Below are positions 1,443 through 19,501 of a DNA stretch of 32,599 nucleotides, piece by piece; the first letter of the stretch is position 1, and each line of letters opens with the position of its first letter. This DNA comes from Patescibacteria group bacterium. Its GTDB lineage: Bacteria > Patescibacteriota > Microgenomatia > UBA12405. Made by a program: the position numbers and the translations under genes. The stretch is from NCBI GenBank assembly GCA_013387215.1, contig WARW01000018.1:1-32599 (forward strand). Direction: 5' to 3'. The notes below the pieces were generated by a model. The model had not been told where the DNA came from. It made no database searches and was given only the letters and a program-made list of their open reading frames with translations.

Positions 1443-1970
1443 TTAGTTTCTAATTGTTATTTTTGAATTAAATTCTTTTTGGGCGTAATCCGCATTACTG
1501 GCGCTCGTAATACCTGCACTTATAATAAAATCAAAACTCACATCACCTGGAACACTAGGCGAGGTGCCTGGACTGCAGCTTACAAAATTTGAACAATCAG
1601 AAACATTCACTTCATCAATACTGGTTAAATTAATTATTTCCCTTGCTGATTCGGAAGATATTTTTCCTTTTTGATTTCCGAATGGGGGAGTACATTTTAA
1701 TACTGTAATATCTCCATCCAAAGTACTTACAAAAGCCATTGATGTTCCCACTCCAGACATTGGACAATCCATCCCCACTGCTTTAGCATTTAAAATATTT
1801 TTTCTTATTTCCCCCAAAGCCCAATTGCCGTTTTGAGTAACTTTATTGGTTACCGACATTTTATTATTAGCTCTGAAAGTGCTCATCAACGCTCCGACTA
1901 TTGATGCTAATATGATTGCCATCATTGTCAAAACCACCACTATTTCAATTAAAGTAAACCCTTTTTTCAT
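1443..1970 (-). CDS. Type IV prepilin-like / pseudopilin protein
   Basis: MKKG|FTLIEIVVVLTMMAIILASIVG class III signal; start chosen at the internal ATG (1970) rather than the ORF-track start (2069). Confidence 0.85.
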   Translation of the reverse strand: MKKGFTLIEIVVVLTMMAIILASIVGALMSTFRANNKMSVTNKVTQNGNWALGEIRKNILNAKAVGMDCPMSGVGTSMAFVSTLDGDITVLKCTPPFGNQKGKISSESAREIINLTSIDEVNVSDCSNFVSCSPGTSPSVPGDVSFDFIISAGITSASNADYAQKEFNSKITIRN

Positions 1971-2395
1971 TAATCGCTTCTCCTTGAAAAAAATCTTTGA
2001 AATGTCGAAGTTTGGTTTTGACCTCCAGTGCCGCCGCTCCAACCAATTTTCACCACTACATTTGCGCAATCAGTAAGTCCGACACCGCAGTTGCTTGATG
2101 CATCATCTATATTTGTAAAACCAACTGAATAAATATAGTTGTCGAAATCAGAACTCGACCACTTTTTATTATATTGGCCTTGCAGTTTCCAAAAATTATC
2201 CGGATCATTTTTCTTTTGGCTGATCAAATCTTCCATCACTATTTGACTTAATTCAGCTGCTTTCTTTCGATCAAAACCTCTATTCCTGGAATTTATAGTA
2301 TTAACCAAAAGAATAATTACACCAGTAATTACAATTGCAACAATACCGATTGCAAAAACTAGTTCTACTACACTTTGCCCTGATTTAGTTTTCAT
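1970..2395 (-). CDS. PilV-like minor prepilin with Gln at +1
   Basis: MKTKSG|QSVVELVFAIGIVAIVITGVIILLV; stop overlaps the next start (TAATG). Confidence 0.75.
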   Translation of the reverse strand: MKTKSGQSVVELVFAIGIVAIVITGVIILLVNTINSRNRGFDRKKAAELSQIVMEDLISQKKNDPDNFWKLQGQYNKKWSSSDFDNYIYSVGFTNIDDASSNCGVGLTDCANVVVKIGWSGGTGGQNQTSTFQRFFSRRSD

Positions 2396-2888
2396 TTATA
2401 AGTCCTGAAGAATTTATATGGATTACTTCTGTATCACCCACACCTTCAGTTGAAGAAATAATAACATCTATTGCACCGCCCATTACACTGGGATCTCCAC
2501 CAATGGAACTGCCCTTATAAGAGGCAAATTTAATTGTTGCTGATGGTGGGTTTATAACAACATTTACTCCATCAGGAGACACGTCTTTACTAAAATAACT
2601 TGTTCCAACATCCATTGCAACCGCTGCAATGTGGCCGTTTGCATTAATATCTACTTGAACATAATTTAAAACATTATTCGTCTTAGAAACACCTTCAGGT
2701 AGCTGCATTGTCGCCGCATAATTCCGTGCCAGTTTTAAAGACGATATTAATTCATTTTTAGTTCCATTTATTTTCTGACTGCCATTAAAATTATTTAAGG
2801 ATACTAAACCAATTCCGGCAAACAACATGATTATCGTTATTGATATTATTAACTCTATTAAAGTAAATCCAAACGAGCTTTTTTTCAT
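2385..2888 (-). CDS. GspH/FimT-like prepilin
   Basis: MKKSSFG|FTLIELIISITIIMLFAGIGLVSLNNF. Confidence 0.8.
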   Translation of the reverse strand: MKKSSFGFTLIELIISITIIMLFAGIGLVSLNNFNGSQKINGTKNELISSLKLARNYAATMQLPEGVSKTNNVLNYVQVDINANGHIAAVAMDVGTSYFSKDVSPDGVNVVINPPSATIKFASYKGSSIGGDPSVMGGAIDVIISSTEGVGDTEVIHINSSGLINEN

Positions 2889-2903
2889 AACACGATTGAA
2901 TAA

Positions 2904-3317
2904 TTATGGGTTTACGACTCTATAATTGCAAGTTTTACAAGTCGGAGATGCACCACAATTTGTGCTATAACTTCCCGTAGTGGCTCCCACATCTTCCATT
3001 TGAGCATCTAAAGTATAATCATAAGAACTACCAACACTTCGAACATAATAATAAGAACAACCGGACTTTGGATCAGTTGGCCAAGCTTGTAAAAATTTAT
3101 TTGTTATTAGAGAATTCGTGTCAGGTGGATAAACACCAATCTGCTGGCGGTACATTTCCAAAGCAATAGCCACTTTTTGGATGTCTGCTGCTCTTCGGCT
3201 GTCTCGTGACTTTTTACTGGTTCCGGCATAATTTACCACTGCCACCACTGTTAACACTGCAATAATGGTTACGACCACAATTAATTCAATTAAAGTAAAA
3301 CCCTTTCTTGTTTTCAC
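2904..3317 (-). CDS. GspG-like prepilin
   Basis: MKTRKG|FTLIELIVVVTIIAVLTVVAVVNYAGTSKKSRDSRRAADIQKVAIALEMYRQQIGVYPP. Confidence 0.85.
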   Translation of the reverse strand: MKTRKGFTLIELIVVVTIIAVLTVVAVVNYAGTSKKSRDSRRAADIQKVAIALEMYRQQIGVYPPDTNSLITNKFLQAWPTDPKSGCSYYYVRSVGSSYDYTLDAQMEDVGATTGSYSTNCGASPTCKTCNYRVVNP

Positions 3318-3748
3318 TGTTGGCTTTTAACACAATAATAAGGACCGGTTGTTCCAGTACCGCTGCCAAAAGCACAAATACCATCTGAATTACCATTGGA
3401 ACGACTTTCCATAGCTGCGCATGCACAATAGGTTGTTGCAATATTGTAAACATAATTTGTCCAGCCAACACCTTTAGGATCTTTTGGGAAGATATCTAAA
3501 ACAACTTGGCTATTTGCGGTCCAGTCAGTTGGAGCATTAGTACCCGCAGGATAAATAAAATTGTTCAAAGAATAAAATTGTTCTGCTGCCGATTGAAGTT
3601 CTTTCATATCTTGAAGTCTTTTTGAGTCTCTCGCTTTCTTTTGGGCGGCTGAAAATGATACTGAAATTAATGCCGATAATATGGCTATAATTGAGATAAC
3701 AACCAACATTTCAAATAACGTAAAACCGTTTATTTTATTTTTTTTCAT
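3314..3748 (-). CDS. GspG-like prepilin
   Basis: MKKNKING|FTLFEMLVVISIIAILSALISVSFSAAQKKARDSKRLQDMKELQSAAEQFYSLNNFIYPAG. Confidence 0.85.
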   Translation of the reverse strand: MKKNKINGFTLFEMLVVISIIAILSALISVSFSAAQKKARDSKRLQDMKELQSAAEQFYSLNNFIYPAGTNAPTDWTANSQVVLDIFPKDPKGVGWTNYVYNIATTYCACAAMESRSNGNSDGICAFGSGTGTTGPYYCVKSQQ

Positions 3749-4257
3749 TATGGTAGGGTAGTCCCTGGAGTAGTGTTAGGACTCGATAATCCAAAACAAT
3801 AATTATAACCACCTAAATTAATGTTTAGTTTACAGTCGGCATCATTAGTGTTTTCTAACTTAGCAAACAAATTGTACGATTTTCCGCTGGCACTCACCAC
3901 ATAACGAAAGGGTGGTTGACCTGATTTTGTTTCAAAAGGCACCACTTTCATATAAGTATAATTATTGCTTGAAAAATCTTTTGTACTCATATTAGTATCA
4001 CCAATCATTTCGTTTATAGTCTTGTTGAAAGTCGTGAATTTGTCAGTAGCCAACGGAAATTTTCCATTATCATCATAGTACATTTGTAAAGCTTTGGTTA
4101 ATGCGTTTAGTTCTGCTTTTCTTTTTATATCACGGGCTTTTTTCTGGGCTGAAGCAAAAGAAGCTGTTACTATAATAGTCAGAATCCCAATAATAGCAAT
4201 CACCACCAAAAGTTCTACTAATGTAAAACCATTTTTATTTTTGGAAATAAATTTCAT
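3748..4257 (-). CDS. GspG-like prepilin
   Basis: MKFISKNKNG|FTLVELLVVIAIIGILTIIVTASFASAQKKARDIKRKAELNALTKALQMYYDDNGKFP; start placed at ATG 4257. Confidence 0.85.
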   Translation of the reverse strand: MKFISKNKNGFTLVELLVVIAIIGILTIIVTASFASAQKKARDIKRKAELNALTKALQMYYDDNGKFPLATDKFTTFNKTINEMIGDTNMSTKDFSSNNYTYMKVVPFETKSGQPPFRYVVSASGKSYNLFAKLENTNDADCKLNINLGGYNYCFGLSSPNTTPGTTLP

Positions 4258-4258
4258 A

Positions 4259-4750
4259 TTACTGAGCACAGACAACATATAACTTATCAGCCGTATTGCC
4301 AATACCTAATCCACAAACACCAGTTACACCGCTGCCGCATTTCACTTGAGAATTTACATCATCATTGCCGCTGCCGGCATCAAGACCCACACAAAGTTGA
4401 AAAGAATCACCATTATCTGTTTGATAATAAGTAAAACCAACGCCTGCAATACCAGGAATTACCTTTAATAATTCTGTTTGATCAGCAGCAGAAAAATTTG
4501 CCACTGAAGTAAAACCAGTTCCGACAGGATACGATTGATGATCATTATAATAAAGCCTTAGTGCATTTTTCATTCCATTCAAGTCTTCAATTCTTTGTGC
4601 ATCTTTAGCTCTATCTCTTGCTCCCATAAAATTAGCCATCAAAATTGCCGTTAAAACTCCGATTATTGATATAACTACTAATAATTCAACTAAACTAAAA
4701 CCCAAATTTAAACGTCTGATATTCTTAAGTTTTCGAATTAATAACAACAT
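4259..4750 (-). CDS. GspG-like prepilin
   Basis: MLLLIRKLKNIRRLNLG|FSLVELLVVISIIGVLTAILMANFMGARDRAKDAQRIEDLNGMKNALRLYYNDHQSYPVG; start at ATG 4750, overlapping the upstream gene. Confidence 0.8.
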   Translation of the reverse strand: MLLLIRKLKNIRRLNLGFSLVELLVVISIIGVLTAILMANFMGARDRAKDAQRIEDLNGMKNALRLYYNDHQSYPVGTGFTSVANFSAADQTELLKVIPGIAGVGFTYYQTDNGDSFQLCVGLDAGSGNDDVNSQVKCGSGVTGVCGLGIGNTADKLYVVCAQ

Positions 4751-5189
4751 AGTTAATATCAGTATAGCAGTAACTTTTCCCACCGCAACTATAAAGTCCC
4801 TTCTTACAATCAGGATCACTTTTACTTTCAAGATCTGTAAATAATTTAAAAATTTTTGCCTTAGAATCAGCTTCATAACAATATGGTTTATCTGGCAGAT
4901 ATTGCTCTTTTGGCATTTGTTTCATATACACATAACCGCTGGCATCAACAAATGGTTTTCCCCATAAACTATTTATATCCGGATCGCTATCATTGCCTTT
5001 TTGCGGCAAATGACCATAATCAGCAAAATATGTCTGAATTGCTTTTGAAACTTCGTTTAAATCGGATTTTCTCGATACGTCTCGAGACTTAGCCTTTGCT
5101 TCAGCAAATTGAGTATAAGTAATAAAACCTAAAACCGACATCACTGCCACCACAATCAATAATTCCAAAAATGTAAAACCTTTTTTCAT
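4725..5189 (-). CDS. GspG-like prepilin
   Basis: MKKG|FTFLELLIVVAVMSVLGFITYTQFAEAKAKSRDVSRKSDLNEVSKAIQTYFADYGHLP. Confidence 0.85.
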   Translation of the reverse strand: MKKGFTFLELLIVVAVMSVLGFITYTQFAEAKAKSRDVSRKSDLNEVSKAIQTYFADYGHLPQKGNDSDPDINSLWGKPFVDASGYVYMKQMPKEQYLPDKPYCYEADSKAKIFKLFTDLESKSDPDCKKGLYSCGGKSYCYTDINYVVINSKT

Positions 5190-5227
5190 AATCTAGATTG
5201 ATTTTACTATATTTAATTCAATAAAAT

Positions 5228-5926
5228 TTAATTGCATCCCGCTTCACAGCAAGCCACTTTACATTTTTTATCGCACGATGGGCTTGCATAACAATTTGAA
5301 CCGCTGCATGCATTATTGCTTGCTCCTTTGCAGGAACCGTCTTGATAAAAATTGCAGACATCTTGTGTGTGATCTAAAGGATGATATGTACAGTTTCCAT
5401 CAATAAAAGGATCGTACCAATTAACGTTTGTGCTTGAAACTCCATAGTTTACATCTAAGGCAGTCATCTCTCCCATATGATAAGTATCAGGAAGATGATA
5501 CCAACCCGAAGGAACATCAGAATCTGTTTTATTTTCCAGATTAGTAAAAACTTTATACCATTTTAAAGCTTCCGGAGAATCCGTTAATATTTTATATGGT
5601 TCACCGGAGATTGGATCGCAGGGCCAGGTATTGAGCCAAGGAGCCATCACATTTGAGCCGCAATTTGATCTTTGCATTAATTGATCTACTAATGCGGCAT
5701 CAGGATAATGACCTTTATCATTCAAATATTCTTCAAAAGCGGTTTTTATTTTATTTAAATCTTTTTTTCTTCTAGCATCATTACCTCGATTCATCATGGC
5801 TATCGGATTTAATGTTGTAGTTAAAATTAAAATTAAAATCGCCAAAATAGAAACACAAACCAACAGTTCAACTAAAGTAATTCCTTTCGTTCCAATCCAA
5901 AAAAATTTCTTATTTTTTAAAACCAT
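5228..5926 (-). CDS. Prepilin-like protein with Cys-rich C-terminal tail
   Basis: FFWIGTKG|ITLVELLVCVSILAILILILTTTLNPIAMMNRGNDARRKKDLNKIKTAFEEYLNDKGHYPD; about ten Cys in the last ~55 residues. Confidence 0.85.
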   Translation of the reverse strand: MVLKNKKFFWIGTKGITLVELLVCVSILAILILILTTTLNPIAMMNRGNDARRKKDLNKIKTAFEEYLNDKGHYPDAALVDQLMQRSNCGSNVMAPWLNTWPCDPISGEPYKILTDSPEALKWYKVFTNLENKTDSDVPSGWYHLPDTYHMGEMTALDVNYGVSSTNVNWYDPFIDGNCTYHPLDHTQDVCNFYQDGSCKGASNNACSGSNCYASPSCDKKCKVACCEAGCN

Positions 5927-6720
5927 TTATATATTAAATTTAACACAAGATTTCCACATGACCAAGCCATTACTGTTCCCAAAATTAAATATGGACCAAA
6001 TGGAAGAACTGAATTTTTTTTAGCTTTTTTGAAAATCATTAATCCAATTCCCACGATCGCACCAACAATAAACGCCACATAAAAAGCCAATATAGTTTTT
6101 TGACCGCCCAAAAGAAATCCCATAAAAACGGCTAGTTTTACATCTCCAATACCCATACCTTTTCCTTTTGTTGCCACATATAAAGTCAATAAAAATCCAC
6201 ACGCTCCGATCGCTGCAAATAAATTAATCCAAGCCAAATTATGGTTTAAATAATTAATCGCAATAGATCCTACAACTAAAACTGCTGTTGAAAAATCTGG
6301 TAATTCCATATATTTAAAATCAAAGGTAGCGCTCAAAACTAAAAACACAATCATTAATAAACCAATCAATAAACTCAAGAATAATTTTGCATTTCCAAAT
6401 AAATCAAATGAAAAACTATTAAAATAAACAACAAACAAAACTCCTGTAGCTAATTCGACAATAGGGTAGGAAATTGGCAATTTTTTATGACAGCATGAAG
6501 TTTTGCCGCCTAAATATAACCAAGAAATTATAGGAATATTTTCCCAAATTTTAAGTCGTTTGCCGCAGTTGTCACAATAGCTAAACTTATCGTCAGCCAC
6601 TTTTTTATCCATATTTTTTTTATGGCCGTATTTTATTGCCAAACGATATTCCCACATATTCACAAACGATCCAAAACAAGCTCCTAAAATAAAAACCATT
6701 ATTTTCAAAAGTAAAAGCAT
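5917..6720 (-). CDS. pilD: Type IV prepilin peptidase / N-methyltransferase
   Basis: GACFGSFVNMWEYRL, CDNCGKRL...PISYPIVE, A24 motif KGMGIGDVKLAVFMG, FGPYLILG. Confidence 0.93.
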   Translation of the reverse strand: MLLLLKIMVFILGACFGSFVNMWEYRLAIKYGHKKNMDKKVADDKFSYCDNCGKRLKIWENIPIISWLYLGGKTSCCHKKLPISYPIVELATGVLFVVYFNSFSFDLFGNAKLFLSLLIGLLMIVFLVLSATFDFKYMELPDFSTAVLVVGSIAINYLNHNLAWINLFAAIGACGFLLTLYVATKGKGMGIGDVKLAVFMGFLLGGQKTILAFYVAFIVGAIVGIGLMIFKKAKKNSVLPFGPYLILGTVMAWSCGNLVLNLIYKWF

Positions 6721-6750
6721 AAATCATTCTAACAAATCTTTATTAACTAA

Positions 6751-6774
6751 AAACCCCGCCGATTGGCGGGGTTT
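6751..6774 (-). terminator. Rho-independent terminator downstream of the major pilin gene
   Basis: AAACCCCGCC-GATT-GGCGGGGTTT perfect hairpin; on minus strand followed by further T (GGCGGGGTTTTTAG). Confidence 0.9.
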
Positions 6775-6795
6775 GAGTTCTAAACTAATTTTACC

Positions 6796-7482
6796 TTAGT
6801 TAACCTTACCTTCAGGTACACAGATTAAGTTTGGATTAGCAGCACTTGGAACATATGACCAGTTAGAAACCTGGGTGATTCCGCAGCTAGCAGCACCTGG
6901 AACATAATCAAATAGTGCTGGAATAGCTGGATCTAAACATTTAAGATTAGCTGCTTTTGCAGAACTTCTATCTGCATTTGCTTTTGGAAAGTAACAAACA
7001 TAGTTCGATCCTGAATTACCATTGTGGAAAAGCCAGAAATTATCTTCTGGAAGTGGATTTGCTTGGAATGGAGCTTTACCGGCAAATGAACTTTTCAATT
7101 CAGAGGTATTAACTAATTCACCGTATTGACCGGCAGCATAAGTTGGTACAGTTGAACCAGCTGCATTAGGAGCTAAAATACCAAACATTGGATTGGTACC
7201 GACAGCAGCATAAGTAGTACTAGAGCTGACTGTTTGACCAATAATATTCCATGGATAAACATTTTGTGAAGCGTAATATCTTTCGAGTGCTCCTAAAACT
7301 TCTGCAGCATCGTTCTGCATTTTACTGTCTCTTGCTTTGTTGGTTTGTTCGATTGGATTGATAGTTGCCAAAACAGCCACTGATAGGATTGCGATCAAGG
7401 CGATAACTATTAATAATTCCACTAAAGTGAAACCCTTTAACCCGATATTTCTTGTTTTCATTTTTTGTAAATTTTTAATCAT
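6796..7482 (-). CDS. Type IV pilin, candidate major pilin (start 7482 or 7461)
   Basis: MKTRNIGLKG|FTLVELLIVIALIAILSVAVLATINPIEQTNKARDSKMQNDAAEVLGALERYYASQNVYPWN. Confidence 0.9.
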   Translation of the reverse strand: MIKNLQKMKTRNIGLKGFTLVELLIVIALIAILSVAVLATINPIEQTNKARDSKMQNDAAEVLGALERYYASQNVYPWNIIGQTVSSSTTYAAVGTNPMFGILAPNAAGSTVPTYAAGQYGELVNTSELKSSFAGKAPFQANPLPEDNFWLFHNGNSGSNYVCYFPKANADRSSAKAANLKCLDPAIPALFDYVPGAASCGITQVSNWSYVPSAANPNLICVPEGKVN

Positions 7483-7529: not shown

Positions 7530-8723
7530 GTTATAGATTGGCATCATAACTGCGATGACCAAAAAAGCCACACCAATACCCAAAACAATCATAATCAAAG
7601 GCTCGATTGCAGAGGTTAAAGATTTAACTGATTGCTCGGCTTCTGCAGCAAAATAATCAGATACTCGCATTAAAACTTCATCCAATTTGCCGGTTGCTTC
7701 TCCGGTGGCAACCATTTGGTTTACAATCGGTGGAAAAATTTCTGTTTCTTCAAATGAATTAGCAATACTAAAACCTTTTTGAACTCTTTCTGCAATTTTT
7801 AAATACGCTTGATAATAAAGTTCATTGTCTGCCACTTTGGCCACAATTCTCAATGCCTCAACCAAAGCAATACCCGCTGCCAAAAGCATCGACAATGTTC
7901 TCATTGTGTTTGCCATGACATTTTTCTTGGTTAACTCTCCGTAAATTGGAATCTTAAATTTGTAAGTATCAACTTTTAATCTAAGATCTTCATTTTGCTT
8001 ACTTATCTTTAAAAAAGTAGCTGCAACTGCAGCAAATATTGGCAATAAAAACCAAAATTTTTGAAAGAAATTAGAAGTCGCCATTAAAACTCTTGTTGCC
8101 ATTGGCAAATCCGTTCCAAAATCTGAATAAAGTCCTAACAATTTAGGCACCACAAACACCATCATGATCACCACCACCACAATCATACCCACAATAACGA
8201 TGATTGGATAAATCATGGCTCCTTTTACTTTACTTGAAAACTCATTTTCCCGTTCAAGATTGTCGGCTAATTTCCCCAAAATTTCATCCAAAACTCCTCC
8301 TTCTTCACCGGCATTAATAGAAGCAATATATGCTTCTCCGAAAATATTTTTATATTTTTCCAAAGCCTCGCCAAGCGAATGGCCGCCCTGAACAGTGTTT
8401 AAAGCTGTATCAATAATTTCATACATTAAATTATTTCTATCGAGTTGGTTTTTTAATAAAGATAAAGCATCTGTTAAAGCCAGACCTGAGTTAAGCATCG
8501 TTGATAATTGTCTCGTAAAACTTGAAACTTGTTTCAATCCCACCCGGCCGACAAAATTCCGATAAACTTCACTCAACATTCCTTGTGTTTCTTGGGCAAT
8601 CGATAAAGGCACAAGTCCATTGCTTTTTATTGACTCCAGCACTTCTTCTTTGTCATGCATATCCAACATTCCCTTAATTGTTTTTCCATTCCAATCTTTA
8701 GCTTTGTATGCGAATCTTGTCAT
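7512..8723 (-). CDS. pilC: Type IV pilus inner membrane platform protein
   Basis: T2SSF-type domains: QVSSFTRQLSTMLNSGLALTDALSLL, GEEGGVLDEILGKLADNLERE, GATGEATGKLDE-like VATGEATGKLDEVL. Confidence 0.95.
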   Translation of the reverse strand: MTRFAYKAKDWNGKTIKGMLDMHDKEEVLESIKSNGLVPLSIAQETQGMLSEVYRNFVGRVGLKQVSSFTRQLSTMLNSGLALTDALSLLKNQLDRNNLMYEIIDTALNTVQGGHSLGEALEKYKNIFGEAYIASINAGEEGGVLDEILGKLADNLERENEFSSKVKGAMIYPIIVIVGMIVVVVIMMVFVVPKLLGLYSDFGTDLPMATRVLMATSNFFQKFWFLLPIFAAVAATFLKISKQNEDLRLKVDTYKFKIPIYGELTKKNVMANTMRTLSMLLAAGIALVEALRIVAKVADNELYYQAYLKIAERVQKGFSIANSFEETEIFPPIVNQMVATGEATGKLDEVLMRVSDYFAAEAEQSVKSLTSAIEPLIMIVLGIGVAFLVIAVMMPIYNLTSQF

Positions 8724-17041: not shown

Positions 17042-17112
17042 GGGCCTATAGTCTAATGGTAAAACAGCTCAGTCGCACTGAGTCGTTGGCAGTCCGAGTC
17101 TGCCTAGGTCCA
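17042..17112 (+). tRNA. tRNA-Ala(CGC)-like, atypical
   Basis: Acceptor GGGCCTA/TAGGTCC with G3-U70 and A73; anticodon arm GCTCA-GTCGCAC-TGAGT; T arm GGCAG-TCCGAGT-CTGCC; D arm GTCT/AAAC with one mismatch; no encoded CCA. Confidence 0.7.
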
Positions 17113-17139
17113 CATTTCCAAAAAGTGCTACCATTAATC

Positions 17140-17415
17140 ATGGTTAGAATTATTACTCTAATTGCATTGGTCTTATATGTGACTTTTGTTATTGCTGCCA
17201 TCACCTCAGGCGACAGATACACGCTCTTTTATAAAATTGCTTCTTATTCAAATGTTTACGAAAACCAAATTAATTTAGTTCATCAAGATTGTCATTTTTG
17301 CCAAGGCAAAGAATATAAATTGTATTGTTATAAAGTTCCCGATTTTAAAAATCGGATTGCTTGTCATCAAGTCTGCGTTGGAGATTTAAACGATATTTGT
17401 CCAGGATCTGAATAA
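17140..17415 (+). CDS. Small membrane-anchored Cys-containing protein
   Basis: MVRIITLIALVLYVTFVIAAITSG... CHFCQGKEYKLYCYKVPDFKNRIACHQVC; ATG 17140 preferred because the ORF-track start lies inside the tRNA. Confidence 0.55.
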   Translation: MVRIITLIALVLYVTFVIAAITSGDRYTLFYKIASYSNVYENQINLVHQDCHFCQGKEYKLYCYKVPDFKNRIACHQVCVGDLNDICPGSE

Positions 17416-17427
17416 TCAAAACTGCGA

Positions 17428-17433
17428 TATAAT
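17428..17433 (+). promoter_or_regulatory. -10 box TATAAT 7 nt before the purA/purZ-like ATG
   Basis: TATAAT, ccgttta, ATG 17441. Confidence 0.5.
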
Positions 17434-17440
17434 CCGTTTA

Positions 17441-18460
17441 ATGAAAGAACAGGGGAAATGCAGTGTTGTTGTTGGCGGCCAATATGGTTCTGAGGCCAAA
17501 GGCAAAGTTGTTTCCTATCTAGCACCTGAAATTGATATTGCTGTTCGAACTGGTTCTCCCAATTCTGGCGCCTGTGTTTATGATGGTGACACCGTCTATA
17601 AACTTCAACAAATTCCCGCTACTTTTTTAAACCGCGATTGTACATTGTGTATTGGTGCTGGCGCCTACATTAATCCCGACGTTTTGCGTCCCGAAGTTGA
17701 ATTAACTCAAACCAAAGATCGTTTATTTATCGATCGAAACGCTGGCATTATTGAACCACGCCATATTCAGCAGGAAATAAATGATGGTTACACCGAAAGA
17801 ATCGGCAGTACCAGCAAAGGCTGCGGTGCTGCTGCTGCCGATCGAGCATCCAGGAATCCTAATTTTAAGTTTGCCAGAACCGAACTTACTGATTTTCAAA
17901 TTACTGATGTTTCTCATATATTAAACAATGGTCTTGACCGGGGTAAAAATATTCTGGTTGAAGGCACTCAAGGCTATGGTTTATCGCTTCTTCATGGACA
18001 GCATCCCTACACGACTTCCCGAGACACTACTGCCGCTGCATTTATTTCCGAAGCAGGCATTTCACCTCTTCGGGTAACAGATATTTATTTAGTCATCCGC
18101 TCATATGAAATTCGTGTTGGTGGAAATTCTGGACCGCTAAAGTATGAAATCGATTGGGCCGAACTTTCCAGAAGAATTGGCAAAAATGTTATTGAAACCA
18201 CCACCGTCACTGGCCGAGTCAGAAGAGTGGGGGAGTTTGACTTGGATTTAGTCCAAAAAGCAATCATTGCCAACAACCCCAACCATATTGCCTACCAATT
18301 TTTAAATTATAAATTTCCTGAAGATGAGAATAAATCGAAGTGGTCTTCACTTTCCCAAAAAGCCCAATACTTTATAAAAGATTTGGAACAAAAACTTCAA
18401 GTACCAATCACATTAATTGGAACCGGACCAAAATCCGAAGCTATGATCGACCGCCGATAA
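17441..18460 (+). CDS. Adenylosuccinate synthetase superfamily protein, PurZ-like (339 aa)
   Basis: VVVGGQYGSEAKGKVVSYL aligns to PurA GDEGKGK; GSPNSGACV aligns to GHNAGHT; QQIPATF, IGAGAYINPDVL, STSKGCGAAAADR, VEGTQGYGLSLLHGQHPYTTSRDTTAAAF, TGRVRRVGEFD. Confidence 0.85.
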   Translation: MKEQGKCSVVVGGQYGSEAKGKVVSYLAPEIDIAVRTGSPNSGACVYDGDTVYKLQQIPATFLNRDCTLCIGAGAYINPDVLRPEVELTQTKDRLFIDRNAGIIEPRHIQQEINDGYTERIGSTSKGCGAAAADRASRNPNFKFARTELTDFQITDVSHILNNGLDRGKNILVEGTQGYGLSLLHGQHPYTTSRDTTAAAFISEAGISPLRVTDIYLVIRSYEIRVGGNSGPLKYEIDWAELSRRIGKNVIETTTVTGRVRRVGEFDLDLVQKAIIANNPNHIAYQFLNYKFPEDENKSKWSSLSQKAQYFIKDLEQKLQVPITLIGTGPKSEAMIDRR

Positions 18461-18526
18461 TTTATTGTTGTTTTTCTTACTTTATTTTTACAATCCTTTG
18501 TCTTTTAAAAAATAAAATAGATTGGT

Positions 18527-19147
18527 ATGCAACACAATAAGCTACCAATTGTAATTTTATCGGTTATTGCCTTAACTATCCTGTTTTTTAGCATTTCTAA
18601 CGCCAAAGAAATTTCCAAAGATAAATTTATTAAAAATACTGCCAATATCGATATTAAACCTCAGCTTCATCAACCTGTACCTGAATTTCAATCTCGAATT
18701 ACTAAAAAATTTTTCGGCACCTATGTCACTCCCAAAAATTCTCCTGTTTACCCTGAACGTTTCACCGGCTATCACACTGGCGTTGATGTCGAATTTGGAG
18801 ATGATTCCAAAACCATTTCAGTCTTTTCTATTTCCAATGGTCAAGTTGCCTTCTCTGGTTTTGTCAAAGGATACGGCGGTGTAATTGTCATAAATCAAAA
18901 TATCAACAATCAAAACATTTTAACTTTATATGGCCATCTAAAACCTTCAAGTCTTCCCAAAAAAGGAACTAATGTTTTAGCAGGGGATCAGATTGGAATT
19001 CTGGGTCGTGCCTATTCTGCCGAGACCGATGGTGAACGGAAACATTTGCATTTTACCATGCTTAAAGGAAGGGATATCGACTTCCGTGGTTATGTACTTA
19101 AAAAAGAAGACCTCCAAAACTGGTACAACCCACTCGATTTTTACTAA
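18527..19147 (+). CDS. M23 (LytM-type) metallopeptidase domain protein
   Basis: YHTGVDVEF (HxxxD) and KHLHFTM (HxH) plus LYGHL; N-terminal TM segment. Confidence 0.88.
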   Translation: MQHNKLPIVILSVIALTILFFSISNAKEISKDKFIKNTANIDIKPQLHQPVPEFQSRITKKFFGTYVTPKNSPVYPERFTGYHTGVDVEFGDDSKTISVFSISNGQVAFSGFVKGYGGVIVINQNINNQNILTLYGHLKPSSLPKKGTNVLAGDQIGILGRAYSAETDGERKHLHFTMLKGRDIDFRGYVLKKEDLQNWYNPLDFY

Positions 19148-19184
19148 GCTAGTACTTCCTTATGATTTCCGTTAAAATCAGAGC

Positions 19185-19490
19185 ATGGGATACAAAAAAT
19201 ATTTATATTTTTTTGGAGCATTAATTGTTTCCACTTTTATGTTCGGATCTTGCAGTCGTCCCGCTAAATTAATTAAACACAAAACTCCCGTTCCAACTCC
19301 AATTCCTACGGTTGAAATTTCTCCAACCGATATGCCCTCACCAACTCCCTCAATTGTTTTTACTTGTCCTGCCAGTGCCTGGGTAAATTGCATGCCTAGT
19401 CCCGATTCGCCTCCGCGACCTGAATGCCAGTCTGAATTTTTAAAATGGGCCCACGATAATTGTCCAGGTTTTCAAGGTGCAGCTTTATAA
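19185..19490 (+). CDS. Small putative lipoprotein, Pro/Thr-rich
   Basis: Lipobox-like STFMFGSC after a hydrophobic segment; TPVPTPIPTVEISPTDMPSPTPS linker. Confidence 0.6.
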   Translation: MGYKKYLYFFGALIVSTFMFGSCSRPAKLIKHKTPVPTPIPTVEISPTDMPSPTPSIVFTCPASAWVNCMPSPDSPPRPECQSEFLKWAHDNCPGFQGAAL

Positions 19491-19501
19491 TTTAAATAAA
19501 C

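Follow-up and report, generated by a model that had tools for sequence, protein, structure and literature searches.

A putative PurZ0-lineage ligase gene lacking the otherwise invariant histidine, probably acquired horizontally, at a tRNA-Ala locus of a Patescibacteria chromosome

The DNA analyzed here (the window) was one whole contig of 32,599 nucleotides (WARW01000018.1) from the 1.306-Mb, 98.6% complete genome of a Patescibacteria group bacterium, and its gene set, including type IV pilus genes, ligA, pth and gyrB, was chromosomal. At least seven pilin-like genes were found in a row at 1443–7482, before pilD/pilC/pilT/pilB, and constituted an expanded type IV pilin set. The gene under study lay beyond pth, where all of the features were read on the forward strand. 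A tRNA-Ala(CGC) (17042–17113) was followed by a small ORF of 91 aa with a hydrophobic N-terminus and a Cys-rich tail (17140–17415; no family match in profile searches) and by the PurZ-like gene (17441–18460, stop included). Downstream of it were an M23-type peptidase-like protein with weak similarity to murein hydrolase activators (18527–19147), a small Pro/Thr-rich putative lipoprotein of 101 aa with no family match (19185–19490) and, finally, PAP2.

The order pilB, holB-like, Fic, ligA, pth, PAP2, ABC genes and gyrB was kept in four congeneric genomes, as far as each examined stretch reached. In these genomes PAP2 lay within 13–140 bp after pth, with the tRNA-Ala(CGC) in that gap in three of them, and none of the intervening genes of the window was present in the corresponding stretch. 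Hence, the window carried about 2.4 kb of additional DNA here (17114–19501, forward strand), a segment with the tRNA at its left edge. No direct repeats convincing as att-type sites were found flanking this segment. Close homologues of the PurZ-like gene were searched for in 95 relatives and in a sample of other members of the phylum, and none was found; its type was known from three isolated occurrences, the window and two loci of other Patescibacteria (L076 and L077, including Candidatus Taylorbacteria), whose products were 63% identical to the window protein. The gene is best read, from its distribution and context, as a horizontal acquisition at the tRNA-Ala locus. The missing homologues and the GC content of the gene (42.0%, against 36.1% for the window) could also be taken as signs of a contaminant contig or an assembly artefact. 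Nevertheless, the pil-ligA-pth and PAP2-ABC-gyrB flanks were collinear with the four congeners at 43–89% identity, the tRNA boundary was common to the congeners and the GC3 of the gene (32.4%) was in line with that of its neighbors. A contaminant is hardly credible in the face of these data and was ruled out by synteny. The cellular neighborhood proposed in an initial annotation of this DNA was therefore that of a native chromosome, and no recognized Z-gene partner was present beside the gene.

The ORF was intact, with no internal stops, and its 339-aa product, reading MKEQGKCSVVVGGQYGSEAKGK...RTGSPNSGACVYDG..., matched Pfam PF00709 along its length (E=3.7e-60). The initial annotation had reported that the positions of the catalytic Asp13 and His41 of PurA were occupied by Ser and Ala, and this was confirmed: Ser17 (TCT, 17489–17491) aligned with Asp13, and Ala44 (GCC, 17570–17572) took the place of His41 within N41-S42-G43-A44-C45 (NSGAC, 17561–17575). 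These positions were compared in an alignment of 134 homologues comprising phage and virus PurZ/PurZ0, cellular Ser-type genes, and archaeal and bacterial PurA. At position 17, 88 homologues had Ser, 38 had Asp and 7 had Gly, and position 44 was His in 133 of the 134, PurA and PurZ alike, Ala being found in the window protein only. Thus, Ser17 marks the family, whereas Ala44 is peculiar to the window protein, which is otherwise well preserved. The neighboring residue was also unusual, as position 45, Thr or Ser in 125/134 homologues, was Cys; Ser42 in place of Ala was shared with 50 of the 134. Since the change from His (CAY) to Ala (GCC) takes two base changes and is accompanied by the Cys, a sequencing error is unlikely. 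The motifs of the window protein were GSEAKGK and NSGAC, and its nearest relatives L077 and L076 had the same GSEAKGK but NAGHT.

The rest of the active site was well preserved. Across archaeal PurA and the PurZ clade, 24 positions were conserved at ≥97%, and the window protein departed from them at the His position alone; among 39 positions conserved in the Ser-type clade it was altered at H44 and P223 only, so that the protein showed no general decay. The PurZ base-pocket residues Y15, G16, S17, N41, T124, Q177 and V226 were all present by comparison with the published description of PurZ (PMC8342488). Furthermore, two PurZ signatures were recognized, namely GSE and an IRV[GA]GNSG-type insertion after a conserved Val. 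The latter lay in residues 222–239 (YEIRVGGNSGPLKYEIDW, 18104–18157), where PurA reads TRV-G-EGPFPTE (loop role in PMC8342488). Residues 254–262, TTVTGRVRR (18200–18226), contained the TTxT of the aspartate loop and an Arg pair. The catalytic pair Asp13 and His41 of PurA was replaced by Ser17 and Ala44, and the same Ala44 stood in the place of the triphosphate-binding/catalytic His of PurZ (H52 in S-2L). In PurA this His has a role in phosphoryl transfer and is required for activity; no data on mutants of E. coli PurA His41 were found in a literature search. The two losses, which the initial annotation had listed together, had to be separated: in PurZ the Asp is normally missing, with Ser in 147 of 147 phage sequences (PMC12884076), but the His is not, as PurZ enzymes keep this residue and H52 of S-2L PurZ, the equivalent of PurA His41, contacts the triphosphate (PMC8342488).

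The family placement was analyzed in a main maximum-likelihood tree of 59 rows. All of the Ser-type proteins formed a single clade separate from PurA (100/99). Within it, the window protein grouped with L076 and L077 (100/99), and these three joined PurZ0 proteins from virus contigs and from phages Ghobes and Wayne (98/94), while the cellular cassette proteins described below (100/96) and the phiVC8-type PurZ (100/99) made up two other clades. A quick tree of 92 rows gave the same main points, with an SH-aLRT of 87 where the three Patescibacteria join PurZ0. At the level of sequence, the window gene was shown to be a member of the PurZ0 lineage, that of the phage (d)GMP-aspartate ligases, rather than a PurA; its placement and signatures bear out the PurZ-like character proposed initially, and a position within ordinary PurA, which would have contradicted that proposal, was not obtained. 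It is from the tree alone that a viral donor would be proposed. When the window protein was used as the lone query, the virus search returned no match, and alignment queries were used thereafter. Of the 28 virus contigs nearest to the window gene, 21 encoded a family-A DNA polymerase and 18 had nucleoside-deoxyribosyltransferase-like genes, as named by motif rather than by profile. Such genes are described as companions of PurZ0 in 2-aminoadenine phages (PMC12884076).

An ordinary PurA, converting IMP to adenylosuccinate for the AMP supply of the cell, was suggested by the solved-structure matches, in which archaeal PurA (5k7x/2d7u, 222 bits) scored above phage PurZ0 (7vf6, 164 bits), and by an Arg matching PurA R303 in VTGRVRR. 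An AlphaFold model of the window protein (pLDDT 96.2) gave TM values of 0.92 to P. horikoshii PurA 5k7x and 0.88 to PurZ0 7vf6, although the modeled fold by itself cannot separate PurA from PurZ. The scores against NCBIfam models all remained under the cut-offs (PRK04293, 346.7 against 368 bits; TIGR00184, 228.8 against 395.6; PurZ, 228 against 300). With its position outside the PurA clade and its two altered catalytic residues, the protein is most improbable as a PurA, a function that was rejected on the basis of the tree and the residues. A 7-deazapurine (ToyG-like) paralogue, considered because of a 40% match on a Rhizobium plasmid, was discarded as well, given that the plasmid protein (L038) retains the Asp and groups with PurA and that que/toy genes were absent from the window. 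That plasmid of Rhizobium leguminosarum encoded, at 8369–16717 of L038, FolE, a PurA-like protein, PurB, QueE, an IMPDH-like protein, nitrile hydratase alpha, QueC, HAD, PRTase and QueD, a cluster that looks like a toyocamycin/sangivamycin-type 7-deazapurine pathway. Two other Patescibacteria (L041 and L042) had a different short PurA-like type on a long branch, with GDSGKGK/GDGGKGV and NAEH/GAEH motifs.

The metabolic context was examined by sequence-similarity searches of the 98.6%-complete genome. No adenylosuccinate lyase or other Lyase_1 (PF00206) protein was found in it, nor in the genomes of L076 and L077, while the same search was positive in 14 control genomes and, among 57 relatives, detected lyases in 10, several of them located next to ordinary purA matches. 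The E. coli guaA, guaB and purB queries had no match in the window genome, which likewise speaks against a PurA serving the AMP supply. The initial annotation had raised the question of a canonical purA, and none was present there. Two other PF00709 proteins were encoded on contig C1 of this genome (L007, 6574–8025 and 12602–13948); they were highly divergent, with GEETKGN and GDECKGS loops, and belonged to an operon unrelated to the window gene, with apparent vWA-like and kinase-like proteins. As for the Z-gene partners, DpoZ, DmtZ and the cassette-type DCD were unmatched in the window genome, where the sole candidates, both located away from the gene, were a short DCD-like frame and an HD-domain protein of a general kind. 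The lack of PurB or any other Lyase_1 protein and of DpoZ/DmtZ makes both an ordinary PurA function and a complete phage Z pathway unlikely.

Selection on the gene was estimated against L077 and L076, giving a dN of about 0.33 with saturated synonymous sites. This comparison of codons showed purifying selection on the window gene over a long divergence, a signal that averages the whole divergence and is compatible with a recent relaxation. The L077 ORF was intact and kept the His. The L076 copy, from Patescibacteria C14-28, contained an in-frame TAA at about 8160, at the position of Gln56 of the window protein, and was either a pseudogene or affected by an assembly error. Together with the change of H44 to Ala, the longer branch of the window protein (0.41, against 0.18–0.20 for its sisters in the 59-row tree) and the three isolated occurrences, this stop could indicate a relic of a viral gene heading for loss, with the catalytic residue already gone from the window copy. 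Such a fate is unlikely, as the ORF was of full length, the other near-universal positions were intact, dN was low in spite of synonymous saturation and L077 was undamaged.

The explanation that we favor, with a probability of about one half, is that of a putative PurZ0-lineage ligase that was acquired horizontally and kept under purifying selection, and whose chemistry has become impaired or altered. Its PurZ fold and most of its purine-monophosphate, aspartate and P-loop residues would be kept, so that the binding of nucleotide, aspartate and ATP/GTP has most likely been retained. The protein would most likely act as a dimer, and the purine mononucleotide bound by it would probably be GMP or dGMP. 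Without the His that contacts the triphosphate and assists phosphoryl transfer to O6, this transfer should be slow and the ligation poor. Because the nearest relatives L076 and L077 keep the His, it is probable that the Patescibacterial ancestor of these proteins was a complete PurZ0-type enzyme. The present protein might then be a weak ligase, a ligase re-purposed with another acid (Cys45 being the candidate), or a nucleotide-binding or nucleotide-titrating protein. The phage Z-DNA pathway would not be run in this cell, since no lyase, Z polymerase or deoxyribosyltransferase partner was found, and any succino-nucleotide product could accumulate, be exported or be completed by the PurB of a host cell.

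A compensating residue such as Cys45 could also have left the window copy fully active. A full PurZ0 would make N6-succino-2-amino-(deoxy)adenylate with Cys45 or water replacing the His, the product being finished by the PurB of the host or useful in itself, for example against phages. Membership of the PurZ0 clade, the conserved base pocket and the purifying selection agree with such an enzyme; the unique loss of an invariant His, the missing PurB in the window genome and its two nearest ones and the unmatched DpoZ/DmtZ speak against it, and we regard it as rather doubtful. Hence, the synthesis of succino-diaminopurine nucleotides put forward in the initial annotation may occur, but with neither the His nor an adenylosuccinate lyase in the genome it is not the default expectation. 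More speculatively, this member of the Patescibacteria may have domesticated a PurZ0 of phage origin, which would now serve as a ligase or sensor of purine nucleotides with a changed active site lacking the Asp and His. Such a protein would bring 2-amino-adenylate chemistry, or the titration of dGMP/GMP, into cells outside Z-DNA phages, possibly in conjunction with the PurB of the host or directed against phages.

Phages are the known setting of 2-aminoadenine chemistry. With a PurZ0-clade gene fixed in the reduced chromosome of a bacterium devoid of the usual adenylate route, the question arises of whether succino-diaminopurine nucleotides have any use in cells, and this natural Ser/Ala double variant offers a ready test of the active-site requirements of PurA and PurZ.

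Additionally, a wider family of cellular Ser-type genes was observed. Among 52 bacterial and archaeal loci carrying them, a DCD-like protein was found in 37, typically directly downstream, and an RNase_H_2 protein in 31, typically directly upstream; a deoxynucleoside kinase accompanied 15, an unnamed 265-aa protein 11 and an HD phosphohydrolase 5. The resulting cassette, present in bacteria and archaea, consisted of the RNase_H_2 protein (in some cases with a C-terminal kinase-like domain), the Ser-type PurZ-like ligase and the DCD-like protein, often with the deoxynucleoside kinase and sometimes with an HD phosphohydrolase (rhizobia) or PurB. It was carried by L037, L080, L082, L083, L086, L088, L090, L094, L095, L096, L100, L101, L102, L112, L117, L125, L128 and L144, among others. 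No specific PADLOC 2023 model matched the RNase_H_2/DCD-like/dNK cassette and a keyword literature search gave no description of it, so it is apparently undescribed; it is possibly a cellular 2-aminopurine nucleotide system or a defense system. Its resemblance to the phage pairing of PurZ0 and DutZ (PMC12884076) merits a separate study. An unnamed family of about 250–265 aa starting with YVGDVxDFxKY, with no Pfam or NCBIfam match, recurred beside PurZ-like genes (L078, 4560–5306; L079, 7231–7956; L112, 9066–9860; L128, 10750–11418; and others), also in Nanoarchaeota. In the DPANN genomes of L078, L079, L084, L089 and L092 the Ser-type PurZ-like gene was the sole PF00709 gene; no Lyase_1 protein was found in the L092 genome, and the sole one of the L078 and L079 genomes resembled fumarase. 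In the group of L084, L089, L092 and L097 the NAGH motif read PQAGH, with Gln replacing the Asn. A recent survey noted four archaeal PurZ-like sequences (PMC12884076); judging by the wider set of Ser-type genes that lie in cassettes of bacteria and archaea, such putative enzymes seem to be far commoner in cells than these four.

When compared with these known and newly observed systems, the window protein shared with the cassette relatives some 40–45% identity and their GSEGKGK and GNSGPL motifs, but those proteins keep the His, lie in a cassette and form a separate clade; the window gene was rejected as a cassette member, as it had no partner nearby and, like the other Patescibacterial genes, lay outside the cassette. 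The archaeal short PurA (Pyrococcus 5K7X/2D7U, PRK04293) resembled it in length and fold, with 40% identity in the structural alignment, but possesses Asp13, His41 and the TRVGEGPFPTE loop, belongs to another clade and works with PurB. The PurZ of phiVC8, S-2L and SH-Ab-like phages had in common with it the Ser for Asp13, most of the base-pocket residues and the overall fold, although they formed their own clade and the triphosphate-binding H52 of S-2L was missing from the window protein. With PurZ0 from the 2-aminoadenine phages Archimedes (Gordonia; 7VF6), Ghobes and Wayne (Arthrobacter), the window protein shared the clade, the Ser for Asp13, the IRV-[GA]-G-N-S-G insertion, the TTVT loop and the fold. 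Nevertheless, phage PurZ0 keeps its His and is accompanied by DpoZ and DutZ/DmtZ, whereas the window copy, without that His and those partners, resides on a cellular chromosome.
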